Positions 2,505 to 35,003 of a stretch of DNA of 37,179 nt are shown one piece after another (within the stretch, counting starts at the first letter, position 1; each line of letters begins with the position of its first letter). Both the position numbers and the translations under genes were made by a program. The notes beneath the pieces are model-generated. The model did no database searches. It saw nothing but the letters and a program-made list of their open reading frames with translations, and was not told the origin of the DNA. Source of the DNA: a virus; IMG/VR virus record IMGVR_UViG_3300035074_000063, positions 1 to 37,179 of that record; one strand, written 5' to 3'.

Positions 2505-3575
2505 TTATATAGACTCCGTAGTTAACAATAACAGTGCTTCCACTGGGTTATCCAAATCAAATTCAAAACGTGTATAAAAGCCAACGATCAACAACGCATC
2601 AAAATAGCCGTCTGAATCATCATCCAGCCCGCTAAATGCAGCAACAGCGCCGTTTAAACTATCGATTAATTTATGCAACATACGCACCATGGACCTGTCA
2701 ATATGGATGGTCAGGTTATTGGTCGGCACATTACGCCGAGGAATCATTTTATTGATATTGCCGTCAAATTTACGGTCGACTGTTGAATAATTTTCGCCGG
2801 AACATTTTGCCTTGTATTCAACAGCCCCCACGTAAACATGAGTACCGATGAGACAATGCACCAGCTCAACATTACCTGTCGCAACTGATAGCGTTATAGT
2901 AAAGAGCGCATCCGAATAAGGCGGGATATCAAATCTAATGACGGACGGCTTGGTCGAGAACGGCTTAAAGCAATAATCGTACGCATCGAAAACCTCACGC
3001 TCATTCAAATCCTCAGAGTAGCTATAAATAACGACGCCAAGACTGGTGGTGCCAACGACTTCTAACATATTAGCAACCATGCCATAGAGTAAAATCGAAT
3101 TACAGCGCTCCCCAGGGGCGATTGTAAAAGTATGTAAACCTGGCGCGATTGTTGGGATGTTGCTTTTTAGATCGAACATTGCCCATTTATTCGTTGGGCC
3201 GTCTAGCAGCCATTTTGGCGGCTCGACAGCAGCAGTAAGTGCATTGCCCACATTGCCGTCGACCAGCGATTCATAAACCAGGTGCGCGACGGGATCAATG
3301 ACGCGCTCCCCCAGCCCATACGTGGCAACCATTGAAAAAACCTGATACGTATCCCCCAGTTTTTTCCACCACGTCGGTGACTCTGCCGGAGCATGCCCCG
3401 CATTTTCTGCCTGTAATGATTCATATTCGGTTATCAATCCCAGAACGCCAGCGACACTGCTTTTAGCGCCCAGCGCGTACGTTGTCGCACCGTTATAGGC
3501 AGCAGATGCAACCTCGGGCACAGCGCTGGATATGAACTTTTCGTCCGTAATAGTAACCGGCGGTATTATTCTCAT
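2505..3575 (-). CDS. Tail protein following the tape measure (unknown family)
   Basis: A 356-aa protein. I chose the ATG at 3575 because it forms an ATGA overlap with the tape measure stop; an upstream in-frame start at 3614 would lie inside that gene. The N-terminus (M-R-I-I-P-P-V-T-I-T-D) with a following A-Y-N-x-x-T-T-Y-A-L-G segment looks like the connector proteins that many siphophages carry between tape measure and fibre. The middle is beta-rich and the C-terminus acidic. A tail-tip or fibre-attachment role is inferred from position. Confidence 0.55.
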   Translation of the reverse strand: MRIIPPVTITDEKFISSAVPEVASAAYNGATTYALGAKSSVAGVLGLITEYESLQAENAGHAPAESPTWWKKLGDTYQVFSMVATYGLGERVIDPVAHLVYESLVDGNVGNALTAAVEPPKWLLDGPTNKWAMFDLKSNIPTIAPGLHTFTIAPGERCNSILLYGMVANMLEVVGTTSLGVVIYSYSEDLNEREVFDAYDYCFKPFSTKPSVIRFDIPPYSDALFTITLSVATGNVELVHCLIGTHVYVGAVEYKAKCSGENYSTVDRKFDGNINKMIPRRNVPTNNLTIHIDRSMVRMLHKLIDSLNGAVAAFSGLDDDSDGYFDALLIVGFYTRFEFDLDNPVEALLLLTTESI

Positions 3576-6500
3576 ACCGCCGTCGTCCTTACCGCGTCGC
3601 CGCCCAGCGTGCACTTTTTCAATACCGTCGCCGTATCACTGGTATTTGTTTTAGTCTCTCCGGTGTTTTTGGTAATTTTTTCGAGTTCCGACTGGAGCTT
3701 AGCCACAACACCATTTAGCCGCCTGATTTCAGTGACCAGCTCGCTATTATTGGATGGCGCAGGCTCACTTAGTCGCATCATCAACTCGCGGTTATCGGCG
3801 GCCGGCATGATGCGCTCTCCTGGATGGATTTTTGCCCAGCGCTCATCAACCACGTAATTAGTGCCGACCTCAAAACTATTGATGCCAGGAACGGCCGCTT
3901 GAGCAGCGGCGGTATATGCCTTAGCCGTTGCATAGGATGCTGCGGCTTGTGCTGCGGCTGTTTGATCGACAGATGCTGTTTGCTGGTAGCCTGGAATCAA
4001 AGCCGCCGTTGCATTAGCGAGGTTTTCCAATCCAGCGGCTTGTGCGGCCGCAGCTTGCGCCGCCGATGCCGACATGGAGTTGTACATCAATACCAGCTCG
4101 CTATATTGGCGCTGTGCGTCGCCGTCTGCGCTCCACGGCCGGTTCATGGTTATGCCGTAACGCTTCATGTGTTCGGCATTGAACCAGCTTAACACCTGCT
4201 CCCACACGGCATTGCCCGATTGCCCTGATTGCCACGTGGACGGAGCCGGGGCTATGGGCGCGGTTGACAATGCCCTTGCCGCTTGTGCTTGTGCTGAATA
4301 ATCCTGTGCAGCCCCGGAGACATAGTTCAGAATTTTAGTGGATTGTGCTGCTTGTGCGGCTGCTGCCTCATAGGTGTTTTTTGCCGCAAGCTCTGCTTTA
4401 TCGGCATATTGAGCGCTAGAGATAGCGTTGGCTGTCGCCATTCTTGCATCCATCGCAGCCGTCATATTAATGACGGCATCATTCACGGTCATGACAACCG
4501 CCGTAGTGCCATTGATTGCATCGATTTGTGCTTGTGCTGTTGTCACTAACGAATCAAGCCTAGCGTTTTCAGCGTTAAATCCGTCCGTGAGCGCCTTGGT
4601 TCCGGTATCGATTGCTAACAGGGTTTGCTCAGCCACGCTTATTTGTGACTGGGTATGATCGGCCAGGCCCGCTAATACGTTTCCGGTGCGCCCTTGATCG
4701 CGAACAAAATCAATAAACGACGTATAAAGCTGTTCGGACGGCTTTGCTATATCGATCAACGCCTGATCCAGTCCCGCGTAATTAGCAAGCGATCCCCCCG
4801 CTTTAGCCGATGATAGAGCGGACGCCAAAACAGCTTGAGCAGATAACCTGCGTTGTCGCGTAAACGCATCGGACTCAACAACCGTTGAACTCAGTGCCGA
4901 TTTCAGATTTGCCGCCACGGTTTTGAGCGATGACAGCAGATCGTTTGCCGCCTCCTTTTGCAAATTGTTTGCGGCAATAGACGCTTGATACGCCGTATTA
5001 TTTAGCGCCTTTTGATCCGATACCGATTTTTTCAGCACATTCATGGCATCGTCAACCGCCTTATTGGCCGCCGATAACGCCCAAACCGCTTGTTGACTAA
5101 ACCGCAAGCTGGCATCCATTGCTGCTAATTCATCTTTACGCTTTTCTGTCAGCGCTTCGATTGCCCGGCCTGACGCTTCCATCAGCTGGATATCCAACGA
5201 GCGCTGTTGCTCGGCGATTTGCCGCGCCGCGTTAGCTGCGGTCTCAACGTGTGAGTAATACGTATCAGCGGCATCGCTCAACTTGATCAGCAACGAGTAC
5301 CGTTCCTGGTCGGCGGCGTTGTTAATGTTTAATGCCTCGACCAAATGACGATAGCCGTCTCGGGTTGCCGGCAACAGTAAGTTGACATCGCCGAGCTGGC
5401 CGGCCAGTTGTTTTTGGGTAAATACATTGCGCTCGGCATCGGTATAAAATTTTTGATAGTAACTATCAAACTGCTTCTGGAACTCTTTCAGCCCGCCCGC
5501 CGCTTGCGCCAAGCCATCACTGATAGCAATGGCATCACCGGTAATACTCAACCCGGATTTTGCCAGCGCATCTTCAACAACCGCAATTTCCGCGACCACG
5601 CGCACCGCTGTTTCAAGCATGCCCTCACCGAGTTGTTGATATTGACCCAGCCGATCGCCAAAGACTGAGGTTGACATGGTATCGAGTGCAGTGGACAAAA
5701 CGCCGTTCAGCTTTTTGGCCGCCGCCTCGCCATCCAGGCCTTTAAGGTCAACCGTCAGGCCGGGAATGATGTAGTTTTTAACCCGGTCCGATAATCCCAT
5801 GCCCAGATTATCGGCCAATCCCAGCATAGTAGAGCCCATGCTGTTAAACACATCGTTGAGCGCTTTTTGGGTGGCCGCGTCAATGGCCGCGTATTGCTGA
5901 CTGTAAGACACTTTATCTTTACTAAACAGCCCGCCTTTTGTTTTTGTTTCGATGGTCGCGAACTGTTGAGCCGATAGGTTACCGCCGTTCATTATGTCGC
6001 TGATGGACGTAGCGCCGGTCTGGATGCCTTGAGCCGTTATAGTACTGGTTTGCTTACCACCGAACAGGAAGCCAAGCACTTTGTTAGCAATAGGATCAAA
6101 CTTTGCCAGCCCACCACTGCCCAGCATTGCTCCCATTTGTATTGTGTTACCGACCATACCGAATGATTGCGCACTTGCTGCTGGCATGGTGGCGAAGTCT
6201 TTTAGACCGCCAGCTTGAAACAGCCTCGTAATAACATCGGTTATGCCGGAGTGCAAATCTGCAATACCTTTGTCGATGCTACGCAATGTTGCATATTCAT
6301 CGGCATGAATGTCTTTTAATAGATTGTAGGTTTTATCGATTGATTCAGATTTTGCCGTTGGATCGCCCAACACGGTACCGGTGTCTTTGGCATATTCGGG
6401 AGGTGGACTACTTTTACCAGAATTAGACATCATTCCGTAACCTAGCCCCGCCATCACTGCACCCATTGCCGCGACACCGGCAAAACCCGCCCAACCTGAC

Positions 6501-8884
6501 TGCGCGAAAAACTTTGCGGCGCCTGCGGCCAGACTGACGCCGGTCGCCGCTAAATCTTTCGCCATCTGCGCACCTTGCATCGCCATCTGCGCGACCGCAA
6601 TGCCCGTTTCGACCGTGTGCAATGCCTTTGCCGCGCTGCTTTTTTCGTCGAACATTTTCGTGGTTGCCGCGATTATTTGCCGGGTTCCAGTCAAGGCGGA
6701 TTTAGTTTTATCGTCCTCATACTTCTGATTGAGTTTGATATACTCAGCTTCTTTGACGCGCATCAAATTATATTTTTGCTGTGCATCAAGGTCTGAACGC
6801 TTGCCGATGTCGTTCTTTTCCTGAGCGTAAGCTTTATTTAGTTCTTCCTGCTGCTTAGTGGTCTTGCCCAGCTCATCGCCCAAATCCTGAAACACGCCGA
6901 CCAAGGTGTTAATGCCGCCTAACGCACCATCGAAAACCGCTGCATTGGTCGCCCCCAGGCGGTTAGTGCTGTCATTGACACGATTAATCAGGTCATCGTA
7001 TTCCTGCATCCTACCTTTGGCTGCTTCAACAGCTTTTTTATCGGCTTCTATCTTGTCGTTTACCGCCGACAGAGACACGGTTTCAACCGCTTCACCGGGA
7101 CTCACGCCTTTTAGCAACAATTGTGTGTATAGATATTGCTGCGCCGACATTGTCAGCTTATCATATCGATCCTGCTCGGCGTCCAATGCAGACCGGGCTG
7201 CGTCCATACCTGCTTTTTGAGCCTCCAGGGCTTTGTTGGAATCCCATATCGCCATCGCATTGTCTTTAACGGCTCCGGTCATGCCCAGCGCCGCTAATTT
7301 ATGCTCCTCATAAGCGCGCTCGGATAACGCCAGCTTTTGGTGTTGGTCATTTAACGAGTCGATTTCTTTAGCGATAGCATCCGCATGTTTTTTGGCTTCA
7401 GCCGCCGCTTTTTTTGTTGCTTCAGCCGATTGGCCGACCGCATTGCCATGGCTATTGTGCGCCGCCGCTGCTTGCAGTGTTTTTGCGGTGGCTTGTTCGG
7501 CCGCATCGGCTGCTTTTTTCTGCTCGTTGGTAAGATTTTGCTGAGCTACCGCAGCACTATTGACATCAGCAATGTAAGTCCCGATCCAATCCGTGCTAAT
7601 GTCCTCCTTGAATTGCTTGGCGGCATCCGCAAAGCCGTTAACCATGGGCTGAACGACCACGGCTTTGGACGAGGAAAAACTAAAGTCGCCAACGCCCATT
7701 CTAGCGACGTCGCCGGCCGCTGCGCTCGCTCGGGCGATAGCGTTATCGATCGTGTTGCCGACATTAACCGTCAAAGCGCCGAAAATAATCCCGACCGAGT
7801 GGCCCAGGCCGACAAACAGCCCGATCATATCGTTAACCAGGAATTTGACATTGCTTTTCATCTGGTCGCCGGACACGATCCAGCCGGATACCGTATCAGT
7901 CGCTGAGCCAAGACCGGCCTCTTTTAATACAGCCCAGCCTGCGCTGATTGCGCTGGTTGTAACATCCCAAGCGCCTTTAGCTAAATTACTGGCCGAAACG
8001 TTAGTATCGCCCACGGTAATGGCCGCTTCATTAAACTCCCTGATGCTATCGAGCGCGTCTTTAGCGCCATCCTGTATCGGCGTCCACAGCGCCGATGTCG
8101 TCGGTTCAACCGACGTGATCAAGCGCGTCCAGGAGTTGCCGATATCGGTTGATTTGGCATTGACGTTTTGCGCAGTTGCCGCCGCTGCGCCGTCAAAGTC
8201 ATGCAGCGCTTTAACCAGCGTTTCGGCGAACATTTGCGACGTCACTTTGCCGTCATTGGTTAACCGCCTGAAGCCGCCCGCGCCTTGCCCGAGCGCCTTA
8301 TCCAGGCTGTTCATTAAGCCCGGCATCGGTTCGGTAACCTGGTTTAACTCTTCGGCATGCAGTACACCCGCCGCTAAGCCTTGCGCCAAACCGAAGAACG
8401 ATTGTTTCAGTTGGTAATTACCCGCCCCCAGTTCGCTGGCCGCATTATTCAGCCCTTCAAGCAGGCCTTTGGTTTGCTGGCCGGAAATAATGCCGGAATT
8501 CTGCAACACGCGCAGTTTTGCGTAGCTATCGGAGAGATCGTTGATTTTTTTATGTTGGGCATCGGCAACGGTCGTAATGTAATCCACGGTTTGGGCATAG
8601 TCGCCGGCCGTTTTGGTCAGAGAGTGCAGCCGGGTATCCAAATCCTGAACCGTGGCCGTATCTTCAACCACTTTATGGCCGAAGCTGATCAGCTCATAAA
8701 TGCCGAGCAGCGGCGCAATCGTCCGGATCAAACCTGACGCCGCCGATTCCATACCGCGCAAGGCACGGCTGGCATTGCCGGACTCGGTCGATACCCGCCG
8801 AATACCGTCGCTGGTCTGACCCAGAACCTGGGCCGAGCCGTCGGCATTAGCGCGGATGCGTAGATTTAATACGAGATCAGTCAC
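3572..8884 (-). CDS. Tail tape measure protein
   Basis: At 1770 aa this is the largest gene. It sets tail length and is thought to be ejected with DNA. The start is a GTG at 8884, just after the chaperone stop. Residues about 50-250 look like the tape-measure N-terminal domain (Q-D-L-D-T-R-L, then an A-E-E-L-N-Q-V-x-E-P-M-P-G segment). Long Ala/Lys/Glu-rich coiled coils follow, a hydrophobic Gly/Ala segment spans about 765-820, and Ala/Gln-rich repeats precede the C-terminus. Near residue 1691 the H-P-G-E-R-I-M-P-A-A-D-N motif is typical of these proteins. At roughly 0.15 nm per residue it predicts a tail near 265 nm. Confidence 0.92.
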   Translation of the reverse strand: MTDLVLNLRIRANADGSAQVLGQTSDGIRRVSTESGNASRALRGMESAASGLIRTIAPLLGIYELISFGHKVVEDTATVQDLDTRLHSLTKTAGDYAQTVDYITTVADAQHKKINDLSDSYAKLRVLQNSGIISGQQTKGLLEGLNNAASELGAGNYQLKQSFFGLAQGLAAGVLHAEELNQVTEPMPGLMNSLDKALGQGAGGFRRLTNDGKVTSQMFAETLVKALHDFDGAAAATAQNVNAKSTDIGNSWTRLITSVEPTTSALWTPIQDGAKDALDSIREFNEAAITVGDTNVSASNLAKGAWDVTTSAISAGWAVLKEAGLGSATDTVSGWIVSGDQMKSNVKFLVNDMIGLFVGLGHSVGIIFGALTVNVGNTIDNAIARASAAAGDVARMGVGDFSFSSSKAVVVQPMVNGFADAAKQFKEDISTDWIGTYIADVNSAAVAQQNLTNEQKKAADAAEQATAKTLQAAAAHNSHGNAVGQSAEATKKAAAEAKKHADAIAKEIDSLNDQHQKLALSERAYEEHKLAALGMTGAVKDNAMAIWDSNKALEAQKAGMDAARSALDAEQDRYDKLTMSAQQYLYTQLLLKGVSPGEAVETVSLSAVNDKIEADKKAVEAAKGRMQEYDDLINRVNDSTNRLGATNAAVFDGALGGINTLVGVFQDLGDELGKTTKQQEELNKAYAQEKNDIGKRSDLDAQQKYNLMRVKEAEYIKLNQKYEDDKTKSALTGTRQIIAATTKMFDEKSSAAKALHTVETGIAVAQMAMQGAQMAKDLAATGVSLAAGAAKFFAQSGWAGFAGVAAMGAVMAGLGYGMMSNSGKSSPPPEYAKDTGTVLGDPTAKSESIDKTYNLLKDIHADEYATLRSIDKGIADLHSGITDVITRLFQAGGLKDFATMPAASAQSFGMVGNTIQMGAMLGSGGLAKFDPIANKVLGFLFGGKQTSTITAQGIQTGATSISDIMNGGNLSAQQFATIETKTKGGLFSKDKVSYSQQYAAIDAATQKALNDVFNSMGSTMLGLADNLGMGLSDRVKNYIIPGLTVDLKGLDGEAAAKKLNGVLSTALDTMSTSVFGDRLGQYQQLGEGMLETAVRVVAEIAVVEDALAKSGLSITGDAIAISDGLAQAAGGLKEFQKQFDSYYQKFYTDAERNVFTQKQLAGQLGDVNLLLPATRDGYRHLVEALNINNAADQERYSLLIKLSDAADTYYSHVETAANAARQIAEQQRSLDIQLMEASGRAIEALTEKRKDELAAMDASLRFSQQAVWALSAANKAVDDAMNVLKKSVSDQKALNNTAYQASIAANNLQKEAANDLLSSLKTVAANLKSALSSTVVESDAFTRQRRLSAQAVLASALSSAKAGGSLANYAGLDQALIDIAKPSEQLYTSFIDFVRDQGRTGNVLAGLADHTQSQISVAEQTLLAIDTGTKALTDGFNAENARLDSLVTTAQAQIDAINGTTAVVMTVNDAVINMTAAMDARMATANAISSAQYADKAELAAKNTYEAAAAQAAQSTKILNYVSGAAQDYSAQAQAARALSTAPIAPAPSTWQSGQSGNAVWEQVLSWFNAEHMKRYGITMNRPWSADGDAQRQYSELVLMYNSMSASAAQAAAAQAAGLENLANATAALIPGYQQTASVDQTAAAQAAASYATAKAYTAAAQAAVPGINSFEVGTNYVVDERWAKIHPGERIMPAADNRELMMRLSEPAPSNNSELVTEIRRLNGVVAKLQSELEKITKNTGETKTNTSDTATVLKKCTLGGDAVRTTAV

Positions 8885-8887
8885 AAA

Positions 8888-9660
8888 TCAGCTCTTCTTT
8901 TTTTGTTGCTCAAAAAAGTGGGTTAACACGCCGTTGGCAAAGGCTTTGACTTCTTCCAGCAGTCGCAATTGCTTGGCCGGTTTTTTATGCAAGCGTTCGA
9001 TAACGCTCAACGCCTTGCTGACATCTAAAGCCGCCGGACCGCCAAAGCTGTAGGTCCACTGATCGGATAAGTACTGACGAAAAATCTGTATGGCTTCATG
9101 CGCCTCTTCCCAGTATTCAAACGGTTCGTTGTCGGCTGGGGCCGGGGCGTCGGGCATGATGACCTCAACCCCTAACCCGGCCGCGTTAAGTTCTAACGCG
9201 TCGCCATCATCCCGGCTACCGCTGTATTTCGCCCAGTGGCAGCCGGCGTCAGTTAGTTTTTTAGCAATTGCCTACGATAGGCATCGGAGCGTTTACCGCT
9301 GTTAATTGCCAGCAACGCCGCCCACAGCTCATCAATAATCCACTGATGTTTTAAGACCAGGTCCATAGCCGATGCGTCGAATTCTGCGGGGGCGCCGGCG
9401 CGAGCCAAAGGCAGACCTTTAATGTCTTTAATTTTTTGGCGTAACAAAATATGGATGCCTTTTTCCTCTGACGATGCGTCTGCGGCTTCCGCTTCACGAT
9501 CCCAATCTTCCTTATCGGTTTTCACAAAGGTCACTTTCAATTTCAGCTTGGTAATGACTTTGTCGTCATCACCAAACTGCTCACAGGTAACAGGCACCGT
9601 GACAGTACCAGGCGTTGCTATGTTTAAAACTAAGGGTGCTTCGTTTGCGCTAGTGTCCAT
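8888..9660 (-). CDS. Tail assembly chaperone, -1 frameshift fusion product (G-T type)
   Basis: The predicted 257-aa product arises when ribosomes slip back one base at A AAA AAC (9262-9256), immediately before the TAA of the upstream chaperone ORF. The new frame has no stop and adds 33 codons before the ATG at 9157, then 89 more residues to 8888. The downstream part (W-E-E-A-H...F-G-G-P-A-A-L-D) fits the DUF1799 pattern. Lambda-like phages make G and G-T proteins this way at the same place before the tape measure. The slip site and open frame are visible; use of the site is inferred. The ORF from 9157 could also be translated alone. Confidence 0.75.
9253..9660 (-). CDS. Tail assembly chaperone (G-like)
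   Basis: A 135-aa protein between the tail tube and tape measure genes, the usual place for the G-type tail chaperone that coats the tape measure during assembly. It is acidic and mixed alpha/beta, with a long charged middle (K-x-K-L-K-V-T-F). Its last codons are CTA AAA AAC TAA, which embed a canonical slippery heptamer, so most ribosomes should stop here and a minority should make the longer fusion product. Confidence 0.75.
   Translation of the reverse strand: MDTSANEAPLVLNIATPGTVTVPVTCEQFGDDDKVITKLKLKVTFVKTDKEDWDREAEAADASSEEKGIHILLRQKIKDIKGLPLARAGAPAEFDASAMDLVLKHQWIIDELWAALLAINSGKRSDAYRRQLLKN
9256..9262 (-). promoter_or_regulatory. Programmed -1 ribosomal frameshift site A AAA AAC
   Basis: The heptamer AAAAAAC on the minus strand is in the exact X XXY YYZ phase relative to the chaperone frame and is followed at once by TAA. 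The -1 frame is open into the next gene. GC-rich sequence downstream could form a stimulatory structure, which I did not fold. Confidence 0.75.
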
Positions 9661-9678: not shown

Positions 9679-10860
9679 TTACTCAAAAATATACATAATT
9701 TCGTTATTGCCGGCATCGGTCGGCTTAACGTCAAAGGTGATTTGGTGATCGGCGATATTGTCGTCCTTGGCGTACTTAATCCCGGTCGGCTGCACGCGCG
9801 GACAAAATATCCCCACCGTATTGCCGGCCGTCGTTCCGTGCCTGAGCGCCAAGATGCCTTCGCCATTGGTTTTGATTTGCGTGTACCAATCCATCGTTGC
9901 AATTTTTTGCGCACGGGTCGTCACGCTCAGCGTAGTGCTGCGATCCAGGATATGCACCGCTTCTTCGTTAACGAGATTTTTGTATTTGACCTCGTTACCC
10001 TGGTCGAACGAAAACTCCGTAAACACCGGGTTCCTCAGCGAGAACAACGACACATCGCTGGTGATGGACGTACCGACCGGTACCGGCGTTTGCCAACCGC
10101 TGAAATCGGCGGTCGGTAACGCAATATCGGCAATCGTGCCCAGCAAGCCTTGAAACTCGAACTGGATAGCCGGGATAGCGTTGGCTTTTAAAGCGGGCTT
10201 AAACGTACCGCGTGCGCCCAGCAGAATATGCCGCACGCCATCCAAATAAAAATACAACGTGCCCGACGTGCTGGCCGCCAACGCCGAATTTGAGTTGGGC
10301 AGATAGATCGCATTCGCATCGATTGAATAGCTGCTGGTGACGTCCGGCGCCAAGGAAAACGCGCCCGTTACTGTCGCTACTTTGGAGGTGCCGTTATAGG
10401 CGGTAATCCTGCCTTTATAGCCATCGCCCGCACCGGCGGTAATACGCAACGTCATACCGACGTAATAACCGTCAATAGCGGATGCCTCGGCGGCCAGTTT
10501 AACCGTTGTCGTCGAGCCTCCGGCTTGCGCCGTGCCGGTCACGGCCGCGGCTAATAGCTGCTCGCTCACATTACACATTTTCATCAGTGGCGCCAGCGTT
10601 GGCGCAGTTCCAGCCGCGCCGGCCCCGGCCCATTCAACCGAGAAACTGATCTTGACGTAGTTAGACACCCGGATGCTGCCGTTATTGCCCATGTTCGGCC
10701 TGATAATGTCTCGCTTAACCGTTTCACCTTCCAGCGGGTCAATGCTAATCTCGCCGCACAGGATGCTACCGGCGCTGGTCGGCACCGCATCGACGCCATA
10801 GCCTGCCGCCTCCAAAGCCGCGAAAAGCACTTGTTTTCTTAAATTTAAGGTATCTGACAT
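9679..10860 (-). CDS. Major tail tube protein
   Basis: A 393-aa protein located just upstream of the tail chaperones and downstream of the neck genes, as in siphophages. It is Gly/Ala/Thr-rich and probably mostly beta. The N-terminal part carries a G-E-I-S-I-D-P-L-E-G segment and the C-terminal part V-Q-P-T-G-I-K-Y-A, both reminiscent of large tail tube proteins of phages such as B3/D3112. A central segment (about 110-170, with D-G-Y-Y-V-G-M-T-L) resembles a small surface-exposed beta insertion. It would polymerise into the tail tube. Confidence 0.75.
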   Translation of the reverse strand: MSDTLNLRKQVLFAALEAAGYGVDAVPTSAGSILCGEISIDPLEGETVKRDIIRPNMGNNGSIRVSNYVKISFSVEWAGAGAAGTAPTLAPLMKMCNVSEQLLAAAVTGTAQAGGSTTTVKLAAEASAIDGYYVGMTLRITAGAGDGYKGRITAYNGTSKVATVTGAFSLAPDVTSSYSIDANAIYLPNSNSALAASTSGTLYFYLDGVRHILLGARGTFKPALKANAIPAIQFEFQGLLGTIADIALPTADFSGWQTPVPVGTSITSDVSLFSLRNPVFTEFSFDQGNEVKYKNLVNEEAVHILDRSTTLSVTTRAQKIATMDWYTQIKTNGEGILALRHGTTAGNTVGIFCPRVQPTGIKYAKDDNIADHQITFDVKPTDAGNNEIMYIFE

Positions 10861-17880: not shown

Positions 17881-19038
17881 TTACGACTCCATAATCAGTT
17901 CATGGTTGACCTTGACCAAACCCAGCGTTGCCGCCATGTTCAGCGACGCCGTGACCAGGTTATTGATCATCAACGGGTACATCAGGCTGACCGATTCGCG
18001 GGTTTTACCGGCTTTGGTAAAGATCAGCCGTGACCGGATGCCGTCCAGCGCGCCCTTGTCGAAAACCTCCTCCAGCGGCTTACCGACGCGCTGAAACTTG
18101 AATGCCAGGTATTGATCAAGCTGGGCGTCCAGCGGCGGCAGCTCGACCACCTCGCAGCGCTGCACCACTTCGCGCACTTCGGGCGAGCGCTCGGAGAGCT
18201 TGATCTTTAACTCGGTCTGGCCGATCAGCACGATGCTCAACAACTTTTTAAAGCCGTCCTCCAGCTCGAAAAAACGTTTCAAATGCTTCAGCGTGGCGAT
18301 GGGCAGTCCGTGCGCTTCTTCAATAATCAGGCAGTGGTTCATCCCAGAGCGCTTGCTGTCTTTTAAAATTCGGTGCAATTGGCGGGATTTAGCTTCCATC
18401 GTCACGCGGGGTTTTTCATTGGGCGCTAAGGTCAAAATAATGCTGTCGGCAATCGCCGAGGCTTTCAGGGTTTTGCCGCGCACATCGTTATCCTCCATGC
18501 CCAAGACATACGGTTCGATGATAATAATCGGCGCATCCTCGCGGGCGATGCGGTCGTTCAGGTCGCGGCGTAGCGTGGTCTTGCCGGAACCACTTTCCCC
18601 GACCACCGCGACAAAGCCGCCATGCCGGGCGGTCGACCACAAATACTCGCGCACATAGCGAATATCCGGCGAGGTGAACACATCCTCGGCTTCGTTAACG
18701 TCCTCGCTGAACGGATCGCGAAATAACGAAAAATGTTTTCTAGCGGCTGGCGTCAGGGTTTGTTTGCGTAGTAACATATCTATACCTTCTTGGTTGGGGG
18801 TGACAAAGGTTGCAGACGTAGAATCTGCAACCGCTTCAAACATTGCCGCATCAACGGCAATTTCTCGGGCGGCCAGCGCGTCGGTAATTTTCCCCTTCAG
18901 GGTGGTTTTATCGATGCTGGCCGGCCATTTCTCATGATTCAACAACTGCGCGACCAGGGCGGGCGATAGGTCGATATCGCGGGCCAGTTGCGCCTGGCTG
19001 ATGCCGTGCTGTTGCAGTAGGTTTTTTAACGCCAGCAT
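17881..19038 (-). CDS. B: Mu B-like AAA+ ATPase, target capture / transposition activator
   Basis: 385 aa. An N-terminal lambda-repressor-like helix-turn-helix (about 5-35, H-G-I-S-Q-A-Q-L-A-R-D-I-D-L-S) is followed by the ATPase domain: Walker A G-E-S-G-S-G-K-T-T at 147-155, Walker B C-L-I-I-E-E-A-H at 236-243 and a sensor L-I-G-Q-T-E at about 271-276. This is the Mu B/TniB/ExeA architecture. B binds target DNA as ATP filaments and activates the A transposase. Unusually, five small genes separate it from A. Length is somewhat above Mu B (312 aa). Confidence 0.9.
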   Translation of the reverse strand: MLALKNLLQQHGISQAQLARDIDLSPALVAQLLNHEKWPASIDKTTLKGKITDALAAREIAVDAAMFEAVADSTSATFVTPNQEGIDMLLRKQTLTPAARKHFSLFRDPFSEDVNEAEDVFTSPDIRYVREYLWSTARHGGFVAVVGESGSGKTTLRRDLNDRIAREDAPIIIIEPYVLGMEDNDVRGKTLKASAIADSIILTLAPNEKPRVTMEAKSRQLHRILKDSKRSGMNHCLIIEEAHGLPIATLKHLKRFFELEDGFKKLLSIVLIGQTELKIKLSERSPEVREVVQRCEVVELPPLDAQLDQYLAFKFQRVGKPLEEVFDKGALDGIRSRLIFTKAGKTRESVSLMYPLMINNLVTASLNMAATLGLVKVNHELIMES

Positions 19039-19040
19039 GG

Positions 19041-19253
19041 TTAGTGTTGCGCCGGTGAATGCAAGGGCATGACATACGCATCAAAATTGTGCCCGGCTAA
19101 ATATCTCTTCAATGCCATTTCGATGACGCCGCCTAACACTTTGGCGGGGGTATCGGTGTCCGGCTCGCCCAGCTTGTTGAATTTAATCACTTGTGCACTG
19201 ATGAGCGAGGTGGCCGTGTCTTCGTCTTCCAGGATGATTATTATTTTTGCCAT
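19041..19253 (-). CDS. Small early protein, unknown (70 aa)
   Basis: 70 aa, starting M-A-K-I-I-I-I-L-E-D-E-D and ending two bases before the B start codon. The beta-strand-like opening and V-L-G-G-V-I-E-M-A-L-K-R-Y-L-A-G-H helix recall a small family of early Mu-like phage proteins of similar size. Function is unknown. It has similar character to the 83-aa protein at 34746-34997 (beta opening, then a helix), though I see no clear sequence match. Confidence 0.6.
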   Translation of the reverse strand: MAKIIIILEDEDTATSLISAQVIKFNKLGEPDTDTPAKVLGGVIEMALKRYLAGHNFDAYVMPLHSPAQH

Positions 19254-19279
19254 TGTCGTTATCTCTTTGGGTTGGGTTG

Positions 19280-19540
19280 TTATTTGATTACAGCAGCAAG
19301 CCGAATGGCTTCGACCTGTTCAAAAACTAATTTGTCAGCAGCCTGATAGCCGAATTCATCAACAAACGTTGAAAAGGTTGAACCGCGGTTATTTTCCTGG
19401 AGCCATGCCTCATATTTGGCCGCCGTCTCCATGGCAAACAATCGTTGTCGTTGTATCGTTTTTCGGTTGGCCTCATCTCGCCTCATCTGTAGGATCAACT
19501 TTTTTTCGTGCTCTGTAACTTCAAAAACTTCAAGTGTCAT
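19280..19540 (-). CDS. Small helical early protein, unknown (86 aa)
   Basis: 86 aa from the ATG at 19540, chosen because it overlaps the previous stop as ATGA; a longer frame upstream would run into that gene. The protein is helical and charged (E-H-E-K-K-L-I-L-Q-M-R-R-D-E-A-N-R-K). No recognised domain. Part of the small-gene block between A and B. Confidence 0.6.
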   Translation of the reverse strand: MTLEVFEVTEHEKKLILQMRRDEANRKTIQRQRLFAMETAAKYEAWLQENNRGSTFSTFVDEFGYQAADKLVFEQVEAIRLAAVIK

Positions 19541-19896
19541 GGGCTTATCTCTCTTAGTTGGGTATAACGGCGAAGCGTAAAACGCCCGCAGTGCTGGCAC
19601 TTCACTTTGCTCTTCGCTTCAAGCTCATTAATCTTTTCTTCGGTATCCCGTTTTTGCTCCTTCAGCCGCTCATACAGCCGGGCTATCCTGTGCCACTCTT
19701 CAGTCATCATAGATATCCATTCAATAGGATTAAGCTGAACTCCACAGGTATTGCATTGAATGTTCGCTAACGCCGTATCAACAGTGATGTTATGGTGAGA
19801 GCATGTTTTTCTTAGCCTGCGCTCGAACCGGCTAATCCTCAGTATCTCTATACTGATGACATTGCCGCCGTCTGAGTCGGGTAGATCAATGCGCAT
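19537..19896 (-). CDS. Small early protein with two CxxC pairs, zinc-ribbon-like
   Basis: 119 aa. I prefer the ATG at 19896 over the one at 19923 because a strong GGAGG lies 8 bases upstream and it follows the previous stop by one base. C-N-T-C sits in the middle and C-Q-H-C near the end, separated by a Lys/Glu-rich coiled coil of about 40 residues. Two CxxC pairs would suffice for one zinc site bridging the helices. Function unknown; a nucleic-acid-binding role is a guess. Confidence 0.6.
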   Translation of the reverse strand: MRIDLPDSDGGNVISIEILRISRFERRLRKTCSHHNITVDTALANIQCNTCGVQLNPIEWISMMTEEWHRIARLYERLKEQKRDTEEKINELEAKSKVKCQHCGRFTLRRYTQLREISP

Positions 19897-19897
19897 T

Positions 19898-20080
19898 TCA
19901 CGATTCCTCCCATTCATAGCCACCGCTCAAAAGTTTTTTTTCATCCAGGTCAGAAATTTCCACAGAGATATTCATTAACGCTTTCTGTGCTGCGGTGAAC
20001 ATTCTGAGCATTTGATCAACACTCTTGATTTCATGATTCAGCATGTATTGCTCGATTTTGTTTTTATCAATTTCATCCAT
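19898..20080 (-). CDS. Small acidic early protein, unknown (60 aa)
   Basis: 60 aa, helical, acidic at both ends, with AGGAT before its ATG. It is followed after one base by the zinc-ribbon-like gene, whose ribosome-binding site lies within its last codons. No family recognised. Confidence 0.55.
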   Translation of the reverse strand: MDEIDKNKIEQYMLNHEIKSVDQMLRMFTAAQKALMNISVEISDLDEKKLLSGGYEWEES

Positions 20081-20098
20081 CGTTTTATCCTTGGTTAA

Positions 20099-20281
20099 TT
20101 AATCTTCGCTGTAATCTCGTTTCAGGCATTTCGTGCAATAGCGTCCTTCCCCGACTATTTGGTGCCACTTCCAGTCGTGATCGCAGCGGTCTTGCAATTG
20201 CCTTTTGACCTTGTAAATTTTGAGGTCTAATTCGTCACGTTCCGCTTGTAACGCTTCTAGCTGTTTGTGGAGATCGTCCAT
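20099..20281 (-). CDS. Small coiled-coil protein with C-terminal Cys/His cluster (60 aa)
   Basis: 60 aa. A coiled coil (L-E-A-L-Q-A-E-R-D-E-L-D) is followed by C-D-H-D-W and Y-C-T-K-C, a likely single zinc site. The ATG touches the A transposase stop (TAA-ATG), so it is translated right after A. Similar small proteins are frequent in phage early regions. Function unknown. Confidence 0.6.
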   Translation of the reverse strand: MDDLHKQLEALQAERDELDLKIYKVKRQLQDRCDHDWKWHQIVGEGRYCTKCLKRDYSED

Positions 20282-22045
20282 TTAAACCGCCTGCAATTTA
20301 GCTCGACCTGTGGCGCTTCTACCCGCCGCCAGATCAGCCAGAACATTCTCTAAATCTTCCTCAGTCGCCCCTTCCGGAAACCTTGCCTGCACATCCGCTA
20401 GCAGCTCCGGACGATACTCACTGCCCAGACGTCCCAGCAGCCATTTGCCCGCCTTTACCTGATTCATGCGCTCCAGCTCTCGTATTGGTGCAACCAACTC
20501 CCGCTTAGTCTCACGATTAGGAAAATACGCCGGATGCTGAAACTCGCTCATTTCCTTATACGGATCGATACTGCCGCCGAATGGCGCCACCTTGGCCTTA
20601 CGGTTAGCTTCCGCCTCGCTATCGGTTGCCGCATTCATAGCCAAGCGCTCCAGCTTTTTGCGGGCTGTTTGCGCCGGGGTGTCGGCATGGCGGCTATGGC
20701 TCTCGCCAATCACCGCCCCATCGGTATACCAGCCCCAATCGGCATCTTTCACCTTGACCGGCAGCTGATGAAACACATCGCTGCCCTCGGCATCGACCAA
20801 CACCGCTTGCGCCATATCGGCCTGGAAGGCGCAGCGGCATACAGCCAGCTTTTCGCCGACCATCACCCCCGGCACTTTCGATACATCGTAATCCGAGCCT
20901 TTAAAGTCAACAGTTAGATACGGCGTCACCTTGCACGCCTTGGGGGTTTCCGTTGCCAGCAATAACAATTGCTCGGTCGTCAAATCGGTGGTAATTAGTT
21001 GATCCGGCTTAATCAACTGCCACGCCGCATAACGGGTTTTGCCGTGGCGGCTGTGGATTTTTTTGCCGTTAAACCAGTGCATCCACGTTTGGCCCAGTGT
21101 ATTCAGTTGCTCGACACTGCGGATATCGACAGCCATCTTCAAGCCGCTTTCCAAACCCAACTCAGTCACATCGTGCATTTTTTCCACTTGCCCTTTGGCT
21201 CTGGCCCGTTGCGAAAACTCCAGCTTAATGCCCAACGCCTTGCATAGATTCCGAAACGTGGCGCTACGGTTGGCGCTACCGCGATCCAGCATGATAATCA
21301 CCGGTATGCCGTAAAACGGGAATTGGGCGCGCTGCTGTATCGCCTGTATCAACAGCATGCATAAACTTTCCGTGCTTTCTCCGCCGAACGCGTAATAGAC
21401 AAACACAGCGCAACTGGCGTGATCGGTAATCAGGTAACGCTGCACCAGGCGATGCTCGATCTTGGCAAAATGCGACAATTTGTTTTTATAACGCTCAGTG
21501 GTGCCGACCTCCTCGATGCGCGTACCGCTACCGTCGGGCAGCTTGTACAACACGCATAGCGACGCATCGATTTGCCAGCACCAGTTAGGGTGCTTGCTAA
21601 TCAGCGGCGTCACCGGTTCCGGCGCCAGCAGTTGATCCGGATGCACCCCATAGCCGCGCAAGGCGCATTGAATAGCACTGTTGGACAGGGGCTTTATTTC
21701 TCCAGTTTCGGTATTGACAGTGCCGGCCATAATCTTGCCGTTGGTGCGCAACTCGGCAACCGCCATGGCCATCGGCTTAGTGCGTTTACCGTTTTTACGG
21801 ATATGCTCAAGGTAATAGGCGCTGATCAGCTCGGCCTCTTCGCGGGTTAACCCGGTAGTGCCTGCATCGTTGCGGCGTTTACGTGACGGCCTGACCGTAA
21901 TCTGTTGCAGTTTTCGGTGCAAGGTTTGCAACGATATGCCCAGCTCAGCACAGGCAGCCTGATAAATCTTGCCGCGCTCGCCGTGGCCGGCATTTTGCGC
22001 CGCCACCGCTACGGCCGATAACCGTTCTATGATTGCCGCGCTCAT
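20282..22045 (-). CDS. A: Mu A-like DDE transposase
   Basis: 587 aa. An N-terminal helix-turn-helix region (about 25-60) precedes an rve/RNase H core with the catalytic triad D160 (W-Q-I-D-A-S-L-C), D254 (I-M-L-D-R-G-S-A-N) and E288 (A-K-G-Q-V-E-K-M). A Mu-type C-terminal beta-barrel follows (about 370-450, with V-P-G-V-M-V-G-E-K), then a charged helical tail that in Mu contacts B. It cuts the phage ends and joins them to target DNA for integration and replicative transposition. The start at 22045 lies after the upstream TAA by three bases. Mu A is 663 aa, so this is slightly short. Confidence 0.93.
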   Translation of the reverse strand: MSAAIIERLSAVAVAAQNAGHGERGKIYQAACAELGISLQTLHRKLQQITVRPSRKRRNDAGTTGLTREEAELISAYYLEHIRKNGKRTKPMAMAVAELRTNGKIMAGTVNTETGEIKPLSNSAIQCALRGYGVHPDQLLAPEPVTPLISKHPNWCWQIDASLCVLYKLPDGSGTRIEEVGTTERYKNKLSHFAKIEHRLVQRYLITDHASCAVFVYYAFGGESTESLCMLLIQAIQQRAQFPFYGIPVIIMLDRGSANRSATFRNLCKALGIKLEFSQRARAKGQVEKMHDVTELGLESGLKMAVDIRSVEQLNTLGQTWMHWFNGKKIHSRHGKTRYAAWQLIKPDQLITTDLTTEQLLLLATETPKACKVTPYLTVDFKGSDYDVSKVPGVMVGEKLAVCRCAFQADMAQAVLVDAEGSDVFHQLPVKVKDADWGWYTDGAVIGESHSRHADTPAQTARKKLERLAMNAATDSEAEANRKAKVAPFGGSIDPYKEMSEFQHPAYFPNRETKRELVAPIRELERMNQVKAGKWLLGRLGSEYRPELLADVQARFPEGATEEDLENVLADLAAGRSATGRAKLQAV

Positions 22046-30922: not shown

Positions 30923-31217
30923 CAATAACCGCGCCGATCTTCGGCTCCTCATTTTACGGTTGCTCCGCGGCCAATCCGGCTATGTCGCTAACCAAGAGGT
31001 ATTGCTGGCTAAACTGCGTGATCAAGGTCATGCAATCAACCGCGATCAATTACATATCGAACTGGCCTGGCTGGATCAGGTGGCTGATGCGATTGTCGAT
31101 CAAGTATCCGGGGGCGTGCATATCGCGACCTTAACCGGTGACGGCCTGGAGGTGGTGGAAGGCCTGCGGGATATTCCCGGTATTCGCCGTCCTCGTCCTG
31201 ATGAGTTGAAAGGCTGA
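30915..31217 (+). CDS. VpaChn25_0724 family (Mu gp26-like) protein
   Basis: 100 aa from ATG 30915; an earlier in-frame ATG at 30876 would lie deep in the DUF2730 gene. A winged-helix-like fold is suggested by A-N-Q-E-V-L-L-A-K-L-R-D-Q-G-H-A-I-N-R-D-Q-L and I-E-L-A-W-L-D. This family always precedes DUF3486 and the terminase in Mu-like phages. A paralog lies at 26489-26821. Confidence 0.8.
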   Translation: MADNNRADLRLLILRLLRGQSGYVANQEVLLAKLRDQGHAINRDQLHIELAWLDQVADAIVDQVSGGVHIATLTGDGLEVVEGLRDIPGIRRPRPDELKG

Positions 31218-31816
31218 TGGCTAAGCGCTCAACGATCAAAACGCAAGTGCCGCGCGAGATACAAGAAGAGTTTAATGCTCGTTTGGTTGCCGGGGGCTTT
31301 GCTGATTACGAGGGCTTGACCGACTGGCTGAATGATCGTCTGGCCGACGATGGTTTATCGGTCCGGATCAGCAAAACGTCGGCGTTCCGTTATGGCGCTG
31401 AGTTCCAGGAGCAATTTGAGCGTGACATGGCCGAGCAGCGACAGCTGTACCAAATCGCTAAAACCTCGTTGGCTGATAACCAGGACCCCGAAGGCGTGGT
31501 ACGCGAGGCGACGATACGCACTATGCAAACGCGCTTGTTGAGAATATCAATCGCGCTGCGCGATGCCGAGGAAGCGGGTGACGATCCGCATTTGCTGGCA
31601 GAGACGAGCAGCAAAATTGCTAAAGCAATAGCTGACCTGGGGCGGACGGATATTTTATCCCAGAAATATAAGGCCGAACTTGAAGAGGCCGTTTACAAGG
31701 CCCGCATGGACGTGATTAAACGCCTGCGCGACTTCATCAGCGATCAGTTTCCGGGCATGAAAAAATCCTTTGCCGTCGTTTTAAAACCGTTTGCTGAGCT
31801 ATTAGCCAATGGCTAA
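31217..31816 (+). CDS. DUF3486 (Mu gp27-like), small terminase candidate
   Basis: 199 aa. It opens M-A-K-R-S-T-I-K-T-Q-V-P-R-E-I-Q-E-E-F-N with an HTH-like N-terminal region and L-T-D-W-L-N-D-R-L, then a helical body, as in DUF3486 proteins. The gene lies directly before the large terminase, with an 8-bp overlap, so a small-terminase role in recognising phage ends is likely. Confidence 0.8.
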   Translation: MAKRSTIKTQVPREIQEEFNARLVAGGFADYEGLTDWLNDRLADDGLSVRISKTSAFRYGAEFQEQFERDMAEQRQLYQIAKTSLADNQDPEGVVREATIRTMQTRLLRISIALRDAEEAGDDPHLLAETSSKIAKAIADLGRTDILSQKYKAELEEAVYKARMDVIKRLRDFISDQFPGMKKSFAVVLKPFAELLANG

Positions 31817-33263
31817 ACGCATCCGCAAGGAGTTTTTGGGCGAAGTATCGGACATTGCCGAAGCGGTCCGGGCCGAGGCCGAGAATGCCGAAAGCGACAG
31901 TACGCTGTCGTTTGGCGACTGGTGCCGCGAGGCCAGCCCGGAATTTCGCTGGGACTGGCCGCATTTGGCCTTCATCCGCTCCAAGCTGGAACCGATTACC
32001 GAGATGCTGGAGCAGTCGCTACGCGGCGAGGTTTCCGAGCACAAGCCCCGGCACTTGATTCTGTCGGTGCCGCCCCGGCACGGCAAGTCCGAACAAGTGA
32101 CGGTGCGCTTTCCGGCCTACCTGATGGAGCGCTGGCCGAAGCTGCGCACCATTGTCGGCGCTTATAACGCCGCCCTGGCGTTGAAATTTTCCCGTAAAAC
32201 CCGGCGCATTGCCGCGCCGCGTGTCGATTTAGCTAAAGACGCCAATACCACCAGCGAATGGGAAACGTCCGGAGGCGGCGGCTTGCGTGCCGTCGGTGCC
32301 GGTGGCGGGGTGACCGGCCACGGCGCGAATCTGATCATCATCGACGACCCGGTTAAGTCCCGCGAAGAAGCCAACTCGGAGACCTACCGCGAGAAAATCT
32401 GGGACTGGTTTACCGACGACATCTTCACCCGGCTGGAACCCGGCGGCGTAATGATCATCATCATGACCCGCTGGCACGAAGACGATCTGGTCGGCCGCAT
32501 CCTGAAAAGCGACTTTGCCGATGACTTTGAGGTGATCAACCTGGCGGCCGAAGCTGAATACGGCGACCCGTTGGGGCGGCCGGTCGGTGCGGCGTTGTGC
32601 CCGGCCCGGTTTAATGAAGCCGCGTTGGCTAAGCTGCGTACGATCCTGGGCCGCAGTTACTACTCGCTGTACCAGGGCCGCCCGGCGGCGGTCGAAGGCG
32701 ACATCATCAACATCACCTGGTTTAAGCGCTACCGGTACAAGCCGCGCTTTACCCGGATTGTGCAAAGCTGGGACACGGCGCAAAAAGCGGCACTGAAAAA
32801 CGATTACAACGTCTGCACCACCTGGGGCGAAACCGAAGAAGGCGATGATTATTTGCTCGATGTGTACCGGGAAAAGCTGGAATATCCGAAGCTCAAGCGG
32901 GCGGCCATCGAGCAAAAGAAGCGCTGGAGCCCGAGCGCGATCCTGATCGAGGACAAGGGCCACGGCACCGCCCTGGGCCAGGAATTAAAAGAATTGCCGG
33001 GTTACAGCGTGATCATGATCGAGCCGGAGGGCGATAAGGTCACGCGGATGAGCGTGGAATCGTCGGCTATCGAATCCGGCCGGGTTTGGCTGCCTGACGA
33101 GCATACCGTGCCCTGGTCGGCCGAGTTCGAGAACGAATGCACCAATTTTCCGGCCGTTAAACACGATGACCAGGTGGACTCGATGTCGCAATACCTGTTC
33201 TGGAAACGTAACCCTAACAAGAAAAAGGCCGATTATCGGGCCTGGAGTTTGCCGTGGCTATAA
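31809..33263 (+). CDS. terL: Large terminase subunit (TerL)
   Basis: 484 aa. The ATPase domain has Walker A P-P-R-H-G-K-S (88-94), Walker B L-I-I-I-D-D (175-180) and T-R-W-H-E-D-D-L (220-227). The nuclease domain has S-W-D-T-A (D322), I-E-D-K-G-H-G and a final H-D-D-Q-V-D-S. It packages phage DNA into the head and cuts it, in Mu-like phages after host flanks. Size fits the Mu gp28 and related large terminases. Confidence 0.92.
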   Translation: MAKRIRKEFLGEVSDIAEAVRAEAENAESDSTLSFGDWCREASPEFRWDWPHLAFIRSKLEPITEMLEQSLRGEVSEHKPRHLILSVPPRHGKSEQVTVRFPAYLMERWPKLRTIVGAYNAALALKFSRKTRRIAAPRVDLAKDANTTSEWETSGGGGLRAVGAGGGVTGHGANLIIIDDPVKSREEANSETYREKIWDWFTDDIFTRLEPGGVMIIIMTRWHEDDLVGRILKSDFADDFEVINLAAEAEYGDPLGRPVGAALCPARFNEAALAKLRTILGRSYYSLYQGRPAAVEGDIINITWFKRYRYKPRFTRIVQSWDTAQKAALKNDYNVCTTWGETEEGDDYLLDVYREKLEYPKLKRAAIEQKKRWSPSAILIEDKGHGTALGQELKELPGYSVIMIEPEGDKVTRMSVESSAIESGRVWLPDEHTVPWSAEFENECTNFPAVKHDDQVDSMSQYLFWKRNPNKKKADYRAWSLPWL

Positions 33264-33415
33264 GTCTTTACATCGAAATTGGCAGCCTGTACGTAATGTA
33301 TTGGTTAGGTCGTTTTCACGAGCGAGGACAATCCAGTTTTAAAAGTATGGGCAAGGCCATGTTAATCGGCCTTATTTGGCCAATTCATCTATTAATCATA
33401 TTAATCAGTAAATAA
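33254..33415 (+). CDS. Small membrane protein between terL and portal (53 aa)
   Basis: 53 aa from GTG 33254, overlapping terL by 10 bp and ending two bases before the portal ATG. It has a hydrophobic N-terminal stretch (Y-I-E-I-G-S-L-Y-V-M-Y-W-L-G) and a longer C-terminal one (M-L-I-G-L-I-W-P-I-H-L-L-I-I-L-I), so one or two membrane helices. The exact fit in an otherwise tight operon suggests it is real. It may be a second lysis/holin-type or superinfection protein. Function unknown. Confidence 0.6.
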   Translation: MAISLYIEIGSLYVMYWLGRFHERGQSSFKSMGKAMLIGLIWPIHLLIILISK

Positions 33416-33417
33416 AG

Positions 33418-34749
33418 ATGGCTATAAACCGCACATCCGATCAATTCCTGCTGGACGCCTACTCCGGCCAAGGTGGCTTTGCCACCGGCGACTACCTGGT
33501 TGCGCATCCGCGCGAATCCGAGACTAAATTAGAGCGGCGCAAAGAGCTGGCCGTGTATCCCAATTTCACCCGCAAGATCGTCGATGTGTTTATGGGCTTT
33601 CTCTGGAAACAAGCCCCCAGCCGCGAAACCGACGATCTGTATGCGCAATTTGCCGCCAATGCCGACGGCGCGGGCGGCAAGCTGGATACGGTGTTGTCCA
33701 GCTATCAGCGTCTGGCGATGATTTTGGGTACGGTGTACGTGATCGTCGATAAGCCGCCGACACAAGGCCGCACCAAAGCCGACCAGGCGATGCCATATCT
33801 AGCCTTGCGCTTGAAAAGCCAGTTGGTCGCGGAGACCAAGAACGCCGCCGGGGTGTGGCAATCGGTGACCTTTAGCGAACAGGCCGGCAACGAAACGGTG
33901 TACCGCACGTTTACGGTGTCTGGTTGGAAGTTGACCAAGGACATCAACGGCGAAGAAATTATTGTCAACGATGGGCAAGCCGGGCAAGGCGTCTACAGCC
34001 TGGGCCGGGTGCCGGTGGTGCGTCTGCATATCGCCAAGCCGTTGAATCCGACCGACAGCAGCAGCCAGTCTTGGGTTTACGATTTGGCGCAACTGAATTG
34101 GGACTTGTTTAACTTGCGCTCGGAACTGCGTGAGTTATTGCGCTCGCAAACCTTTGCCATTCTGGCGCTGCCGGTGGTGGATGGTAGCGAGCGCGAAAAG
34201 CTCCAGGATATGACCATCAGCACCGAGAATGCCTTGACCTACAACCCGGCAGGCGGCGGCAAGCCTGACTTTATCGCGCCGCCCGCCGACCCGGTCGAGC
34301 TGTACATGAAGCAAATCGCCGCGACGATTGAAGATATTTACCGGATCGCCAACCTGGAGTTTGTCGGCGGCGTGCAGCAATCCGGCGTTGCCCTGTCCTT
34401 TCACTTCCAGGAAGCCAACAGCAGTTTACGCGGCATGGCCGAGATGTGCGAGAGCGCCGAAACCGACATCGCAGCGCTGGTGTACTTATGGCAGGCCGGC
34501 ACCTTTAGCGGCAATATCGCCTATTCGAACGATTTTAATTTATCGGACGTGTCGGCAGCCATTGCCACGGCGCTGGATACAGTCACCCTGGGCATGGGCA
34601 GCGAGTTCGACAAGGCTATCAAAAAACGCCTGGTCAAGCAGATATTGGGCAACGATACCGCGGCCGGCACGATGGCGGCGATTGATAAGGAGATTGATGC
34701 ACAGGGGGATGAGTACGGGGATCGACTGGCACGGCAGGCGGGAGCATGA
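33418..34749 (+). CDS. Portal protein (DUF4055-like)
   Basis: 443 aa in the portal position between terminase and MuF genes. It contains Y-P-N-F-T-R-K-I-V-D-V-F-M-G-F-L-W near the start, a long mixed middle and Y-R-I-A-N-L-E-F-V-G-G, S-G-V-A-L-S-F-H-F-Q-E-A-N-S in the last third. This is closer to DUF4055-type portals than to the Mu portal (DUF935). It forms the dodecameric ring at the head vertex. Its stop overlaps the next start by 4 bp. Confidence 0.75.
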   Translation: MAINRTSDQFLLDAYSGQGGFATGDYLVAHPRESETKLERRKELAVYPNFTRKIVDVFMGFLWKQAPSRETDDLYAQFAANADGAGGKLDTVLSSYQRLAMILGTVYVIVDKPPTQGRTKADQAMPYLALRLKSQLVAETKNAAGVWQSVTFSEQAGNETVYRTFTVSGWKLTKDINGEEIIVNDGQAGQGVYSLGRVPVVRLHIAKPLNPTDSSSQSWVYDLAQLNWDLFNLRSELRELLRSQTFAILALPVVDGSEREKLQDMTISTENALTYNPAGGGKPDFIAPPADPVELYMKQIAATIEDIYRIANLEFVGGVQQSGVALSFHFQEANSSLRGMAEMCESAETDIAALVYLWQAGTFSGNIAYSNDFNLSDVSAAIATALDTVTLGMGSEFDKAIKKRLVKQILGNDTAAGTMAAIDKEIDAQGDEYGDRLARQAGA

Positions 34750-34997
34750 GCAATATTACCTATTTAGCCGATAAACTCGATAACGCTCTGCTGGATACGC
34801 CGCTGCATGCCCTGGAGTTGGTTAAGGAGCGCATAGAAACCGGCCAGCAGTCGCCGACCAAGTTAATCGTAATAAGTCTGGATGATAGCGACGGTCTGTA
34901 TGATGTTAAGTGGCAGCAAGCCGGGATGACCATGTCGCAATTGCTGGCTTTGTTGGAGATTGTCAAGTCAATAGCTATTAACGAGATGGGCTATTGA
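34746..34997 (+). CDS. Small protein between portal and MuF, unknown (83 aa)
   Basis: 83 aa, acidic. T-K-L-I-V-I-S-L-D-D-S-D-G-L-Y-D-V-K-W-Q-Q-A-G-M-T-M-S-Q-L-L-A-L-L-E-I suggests strands then a helix. Similar small proteins occur near phage portals. The ATGA overlap with the portal shows joint translation. It has no known role. Confidence 0.6.
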   Translation: MSNITYLADKLDNALLDTPLHALELVKERIETGQQSPTKLIVISLDDSDGLYDVKWQQAGMTMSQLLALLEIVKSIAINEMGY

Positions 34998-35003
34998 CCG
35001 GAA

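Follow-up and report, generated by a model that had tools for sequence, protein, structure and literature searches.

A probable programmed -1 ribosomal frameshift joining a tail assembly chaperone to a DUF1799 domain in an apparently Mu-like siphophage

The DNA analysed here, referred to as the window, comprises the 37,179 nucleotides of the IMG/VR virus record IMGVR_UViG_3300035074_000063 (positions 1 to 37,179). On its minus strand, a pair of overlapping open reading frames sits between the gene of the major tail (tube) protein (9679..10860), some homologues of which are annotated as tail tube proteins, and the gene of the tape measure protein (3572..8884; 1770 aa, GTG start; TMP_3, E 2e-37). 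Tail assembly chaperone pairs are usually found at this location. The upstream member, ORF1 (9253..9660, minus strand), encodes in the zero frame a protein of 135 aa with the C-terminus ...LLKN, whereas the downstream member, ORF2 (8888..9157, minus strand), gives 89 aa when read from its conventional ATG. Elsewhere in the window, a MuB-like ATPase (phrog_296, E 6.5e-73) adjoins a 587-aa ORF resembling a Mu-type transposase (17881-22045, minus strand), and the phage appears to be a Mu-like transposable siphophage. At 31217-36446 on the plus strand, ORFs resembling a portal, a Mu F-like protein and both terminase subunits (small and large) were recognized by eye; all of these run opposite to the head and tail genes, which occupy 0.4-15 kb on the minus strand.

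The 3' end of ORF1 reads CAA TTG CTA AAA AAC TAA on the minus strand. It contains the heptamer A_AAA_AAC (9256..9262), phased X_XXY_YYZ relative to the zero frame of ORF1, and the zero-frame stop TAA (9253..9255) directly abuts it. The zero and -1 frames overlap by 19 nt, the first codon past a -1 slip is CTA, and from there 122 codons stay open down to position 8888. This -1 frame extension (8888..9256, minus strand; 122 aa) matches DUF1799 (PF08809; E 1.1e-7, 32.4 bits, above the Pfam gathering cut-off of 26) and would form the T-like domain of a fusion of 135 + 122 = 257 aa, with the predicted junction peptide ...QLLKNLTDAGCHWAK.... Its first 33 codons (9158..9256), which precede the conventional ATG, encode LTDAGCHWAKYSG.... 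The original prediction, made from the letters of the window, had described a correctly phased heptamer with an immediate stop and a -1 frame open for 122 codons through a DUF1799-like protein; the end of ORF1 bears out the one, and the translation together with the PF08809 match bears out the other.

The assignment of ORF1 as a gpG-like tail assembly (tape-measure) chaperone draws on its relatives, its position and a modest structural model, since its own protein matches no Pfam or PHROG family. Six of eight aligned members of its family, the window protein not being one of the six, match a PHROG tail family, and some of them match tail assembly chaperone families; the families hit by homologues (phrog_569/313/8233) are of the tail assembly chaperone or tape-measure kind. 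The AlphaFold model of ORF1 (mean pLDDT 76) matches predicted phage tape-measure chaperones in BFVD, including a 236-aa entry of Serratia phage Scapp (E 0.005) and, weakly, a 129-aa entry of the same phage. A fold search of the PDB with the models of ORF1 and of the -1 extension gave no significant match.

Searches that used the major tail protein or DUF1799 yielded a set of relatives, comprising phages (including RcapMu, RcWaterboi, ThpS-P1, Vibrio ZX4290, S-CBS1, S-LBS1 and T1-like phages), IMG/VR contigs and one prophage of Methylobacter. Searches of the phages collection with ORF1 or ORF2, and of viral_contigs with ORF2 or with alignment A1 (too divergent), returned no match. Among the homology-reached junctions, which belong to proteobacterial and cyanobacterial phages and prophages, 49 of 51 carry AAAAAAC, GGGAAAC or, in one case, GGGAAAT in phase with the stop directly after it. 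The closest relatives, L002 (81% ORF1 identity), L010 and L012, have AAAAAAC TAA exactly as in the window. L010 is the prophage, found in a Methylobacter MAG; its major tail protein is 78% identical to that of the window, which suggests a methanotroph-type host for the window's phage. Two junctions depart from the pattern: Klebsiella phage Re28-1 (L048) reads CAA AAG CCT TAA and has no canonical heptamer, and in Microcystis phage yong1 (L055) a T_TTT_TTC precedes the stop by 20 codons. Outside the window's clade the upstream proteins are only ~13-25% identical to ORF1, yet all end in Asn, and this invariant residue is the AAC of the heptamer. The alternation between AAAAAAC and GGGAAAC, the latter standing in the same place at 41 of 82 junctions, is what tandem tRNA slippage predicts. 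In Alteromonas phage P24 (L056:4038-4345), AAAAAAC TAA is followed by a 101-codon -1 frame that carries no annotated gene; as it lies between the ORF in the chaperone position and the tape measure gene, it is likely a missed second half.

To avoid choosing relatives by their closeness to the window, an independent sample was drawn by searching genomes of Proteobacteria (369 at class level and 398 at phylum level, with a few in common) with the Pfam DUF1799 model alone. Once L057, which is the L010 locus again, and L061, truncated at the end of its contig, had been excluded, 35 loci were readable, and at all 35 an in-phase heptamer connects DUF1799, read in the -1 frame, with the ORF upstream. 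Retention of the heptamer by relatives, which had been named beforehand as a check, is hence found in both sets. The heptamer is X_XXA_AAC at 34 loci and AAAAAAG at one. The stop abuts it at 27 of the 35 (TGA 20, TAA 3, TAG 4), while at the other eight the heptamer lies 1, 1, 1, 3, 6, 9, 18 and 35 codons upstream of the stop; the 35-codon case (L093) scores under the Pfam cut-off and is the weakest locus of the sample. In the sequences of these DUF1799 loci, then, the heptamer is near-universal and the abutting stop is frequent yet not required.

Three stricter rules for the stop were considered and rejected: that it must abut the heptamer (the eight loci just listed), that it is weakened by a conserved +4 base (all four bases are found after it), and that it is read by RF2 only, with TAG avoided (TAG occurs four times among the 35 loci). 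In the set of homology-reached junctions with an abutting stop, an Arg as second -1 codon is encoded by AGR in 7 of 7 cases, against ~10% AGR locally, a figure that relatedness inflates; from this codon usage, the A of the stop looks to be under selection in that set.

The window belongs to an A-rich phage, and the background of such heptamers was counted over 13 of its genes. Their 4781 codons contain 21 in-phase XXXYYYZ heptamers, four of them AAAAAAC, and the in-phase rate of AAAAAAC/GGGAAAC is ~8e-4 per codon. The probability of an accidental in-phase heptamer within the 19-nt overlap is estimated at ~0.5%; the decisive evidence is the conservation among relatives, not this figure.

Beyond what had originally been claimed, a stem-loop (9212..9246, minus strand) starts 9 nt 3' of the heptamer, the usual distance for a stimulator of -1 frameshifting, and is a putative stimulator of this kind, an element that tail chaperone frameshift signals often have but do not require. 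Over the 72 nt past the site, the folding z is -3.5 in the window, -2.5 in L002, -3.6 in L010 and -3.3 in L012. Compared with L002, two pairs of the stem-loop have changed in a compensatory way, one has changed on one side only and one is broken, and RNAalifold on the four sequences gives a consistent inner stem with modest covariation. Across 46 loci set against synonymous-codon shuffles, the mean z is -1.32 at the stem-loop position and -0.5 to +0.4 elsewhere; with dinucleotide shuffles the folding peak, at a mean z of -1.6 to -1.8, falls 3-6 nt past the heptamer. Family-wide, mean z values of ~-1.2 to -1.8 are confined to 0-9 nt past the heptamer, and the independent set repeats the peak (mean z -1.3 to -1.6 at 0-6 nt), with individual loci not all significant and several T1-like ones weak. 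An Rfam search gave no match. A possible second stimulator, a Shine-Dalgarno-like AGGAGG, lies a few nucleotides upstream of GGGAAAC in L004, L015 and L019, and upstream SD-like pairing reaches ~-6 to -12 kcal/mol in many alphaproteobacterial-type relatives. For the window's own clade such an element is not claimed, as the corresponding values of -2.6 to -3.1 kcal/mol are ordinary for the gene.

The 33 codons ahead of the conventional ATG were compared among the window, L002, L010 and L012. In the -1 frame their pN/pS is ~0.3; the two remaining frames, which contain stops, give ~0.8-2.7 for the diverged pairs, so that purifying selection on this stretch is confined to the -1 frame. The wider family shares the motif LxAAARAWAxAR within it, and in the AlphaFold model of the extension residues 2-11 are confidently predicted to form a helix directly past the shift site (mean pLDDT of the first ten residues, 87). 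The expectation that these codons read as sensible protein is upheld, the stretch being free of stops in the close relatives, and so is the suspicion that the ATG is probably not the main start of the second frame, to which the comparison of relatives below also speaks.

Taken together, these observations make it highly probable that the tail assembly chaperone gene of the window undergoes programmed -1 ribosomal frameshifting in the arrangement of lambda gpG/gpGT, yielding a 257-aa fusion of chaperone and DUF1799. The basis is the sequence of the site and its phase, together with conservation, selection for coding in the -1 frame, a conserved structure suitably spaced from the heptamer, and the gene order; that frameshifting occurs is what we infer from these sequence features. 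The most obvious alternative, that ORF2 is a gene in its own right, translated from the ATG at 9157 or through coupling to the termination of ORF1, with the heptamer incidental, is very improbable. The ATG of the window is preceded five bases upstream by an SD-like GAGG (GAGGTCATCATG), so lack of such a sequence is no argument against it; conservation is. Although L002 and L012 retain the ATG, and some internal initiation could add a short product in the window, the Methylobacter prophage has CTG at this position and its -1 ORF contains no ATG at all, and 21 of 82 junctions lack any ATG that would leave at least 60 codons. A separate gene would also leave unexplained why the codons before the ATG carry purifying selection and a conserved motif, and why heptamer, stop position and stem-loop are all conserved.

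Slippage of the RNA polymerase, rather than of the ribosome, on the run of six A present in the window could in principle produce the same long form, and we consider this slightly less probable still. Six A is short for transcriptional slippage, half of the 82 junctions have at the same place GGGAAAC, with no run longer than three, and the structure is conserved at a ribosome-pausing distance. Adjacent ORFs in a -1 relation also resemble a single gene split by an indel, be it a sequencing error or decay; with the break at the identical codon in dozens of independent genomes, this reading has a negligible probability, and no in-frame fused gene was seen among the loci read in relatives.

Under programmed frameshifting, most ribosomes would stop at TAA and release the 135-aa chaperone. 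A minority, whose tRNA-Lys and tRNA-Asn are paired with AAA AAC, would slip one base back onto AAA AAA, assisted by the stem-loop 9 nt downstream, and would read 122 more codons to give the 257-aa product in which DUF1799 is fused to the chaperone. If the two forms act as gpG and gpGT do in lambda (reviewed in PMC5009743), many copies of the short one would cover the tape measure protein, and the rare long one would recruit the tail tube protein. The shift rate would be a few percent, if lambda and HK97-type genes are a guide.

The annotation of the locus changes accordingly with the comparison of relatives, in that the second product is likely to be made mainly as part of a 257-aa fusion and not as an 89-aa protein. 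The same correction applies to many DUF1799 "hypothetical proteins" beside proteobacterial tape measure genes, for which the family-wide signal offers a simple annotation rule, and it links DUF1799, a domain named in a single paper of the literature searched, to that half of a frameshift fusion which corresponds to T. The loci also provide a set of natural variants for how an abutting stop and an AAC A-site codon set the rate of shifting.

Frameshifting in tail genes is reportedly a long-established phenomenon, with Xu et al. in 2004 named as a source. The window resembles lambda gpG/gpGT in pairing a short chaperone with a -1 fusion in tail assembly, a likeness of arrangement; lambda itself uses G_GGA_AAG, with the stop several codons further on. 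In lambda, the gpG:gpGT ratio of ~30:1 matters in tail assembly (PMC5009743), and measured shift rates in two HK97-type tail chaperone genes are 6% and 7% (PMC3711429). For Pseudomonas Mu-like siphophages of the PaMx73 group, which are likewise transposable siphophages, a -1 shift has been proposed in the tail assembly genes (PMC4378225). No description of a DUF1799-wide frameshift signal was found, a weak absence as most subscription journals lay outside the search, and PMC8541194 contains nothing on a tail frameshift.

Among systems with a DUF1799-type second part, Rhodobacter phage RcapMu (RcapMu49/RcapMu50) shares with the window the gene order, DUF1799 in the -1 frame and a heptamer abutting the stop, and its GenBank record (JN190960) notes a "potential -1 frameshift" at this site; it differs in its heptamer GGGAAAC, its stop TGA and a strong SD-like AGGAGG upstream, which the window lacks. 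Chaperones of T1-like phages (Drexlerviridae), for example Stevie, Webervirus VAC2 and Cronobacter CS01, also have a DUF1799-type second part, and in Stevie a conserved translational frameshift in the tape-measure chaperones has been described (PMC4319613). In VAC2 and CS01, A_AAA_AAC abuts TAA as in the window, whereas downstream folding is weaker.

Heptamers listed as shift-prone in E. coli end in A_AAG (A_AAA_AAG, C_CCA_AAG, G_GGA_AAG; PMC5009743). Rous sarcoma virus and barley yellow dwarf virus are known to have a stop directly past the slippery site, and when an abutting stop was tested artificially with HIV-1 it reduced shifting and conferred release factor sensitivity (PMC4373837). Judging from their sequences, DUF1799-type chaperones may share a common signal, consisting of a heptamer with, almost always, AAC in the A-site instead of the AAG of the most shift-prone E. 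coli sites, usually a stop as the next codon and a stem-loop a few nucleotides on, in which the abutting stop could set a low, release-factor-sensitive rate; we put this forward as a tentative and rather doubtful idea, under which the output of tail assembly would depend on release factor supply. The frameshift site itself is very probably genuine, though it belongs to a well-known kind, which lambda and many other tailed phages share; less familiar are the almost exclusive use of AAC as A-site codon and the frequency with which a stop abuts the heptamer.
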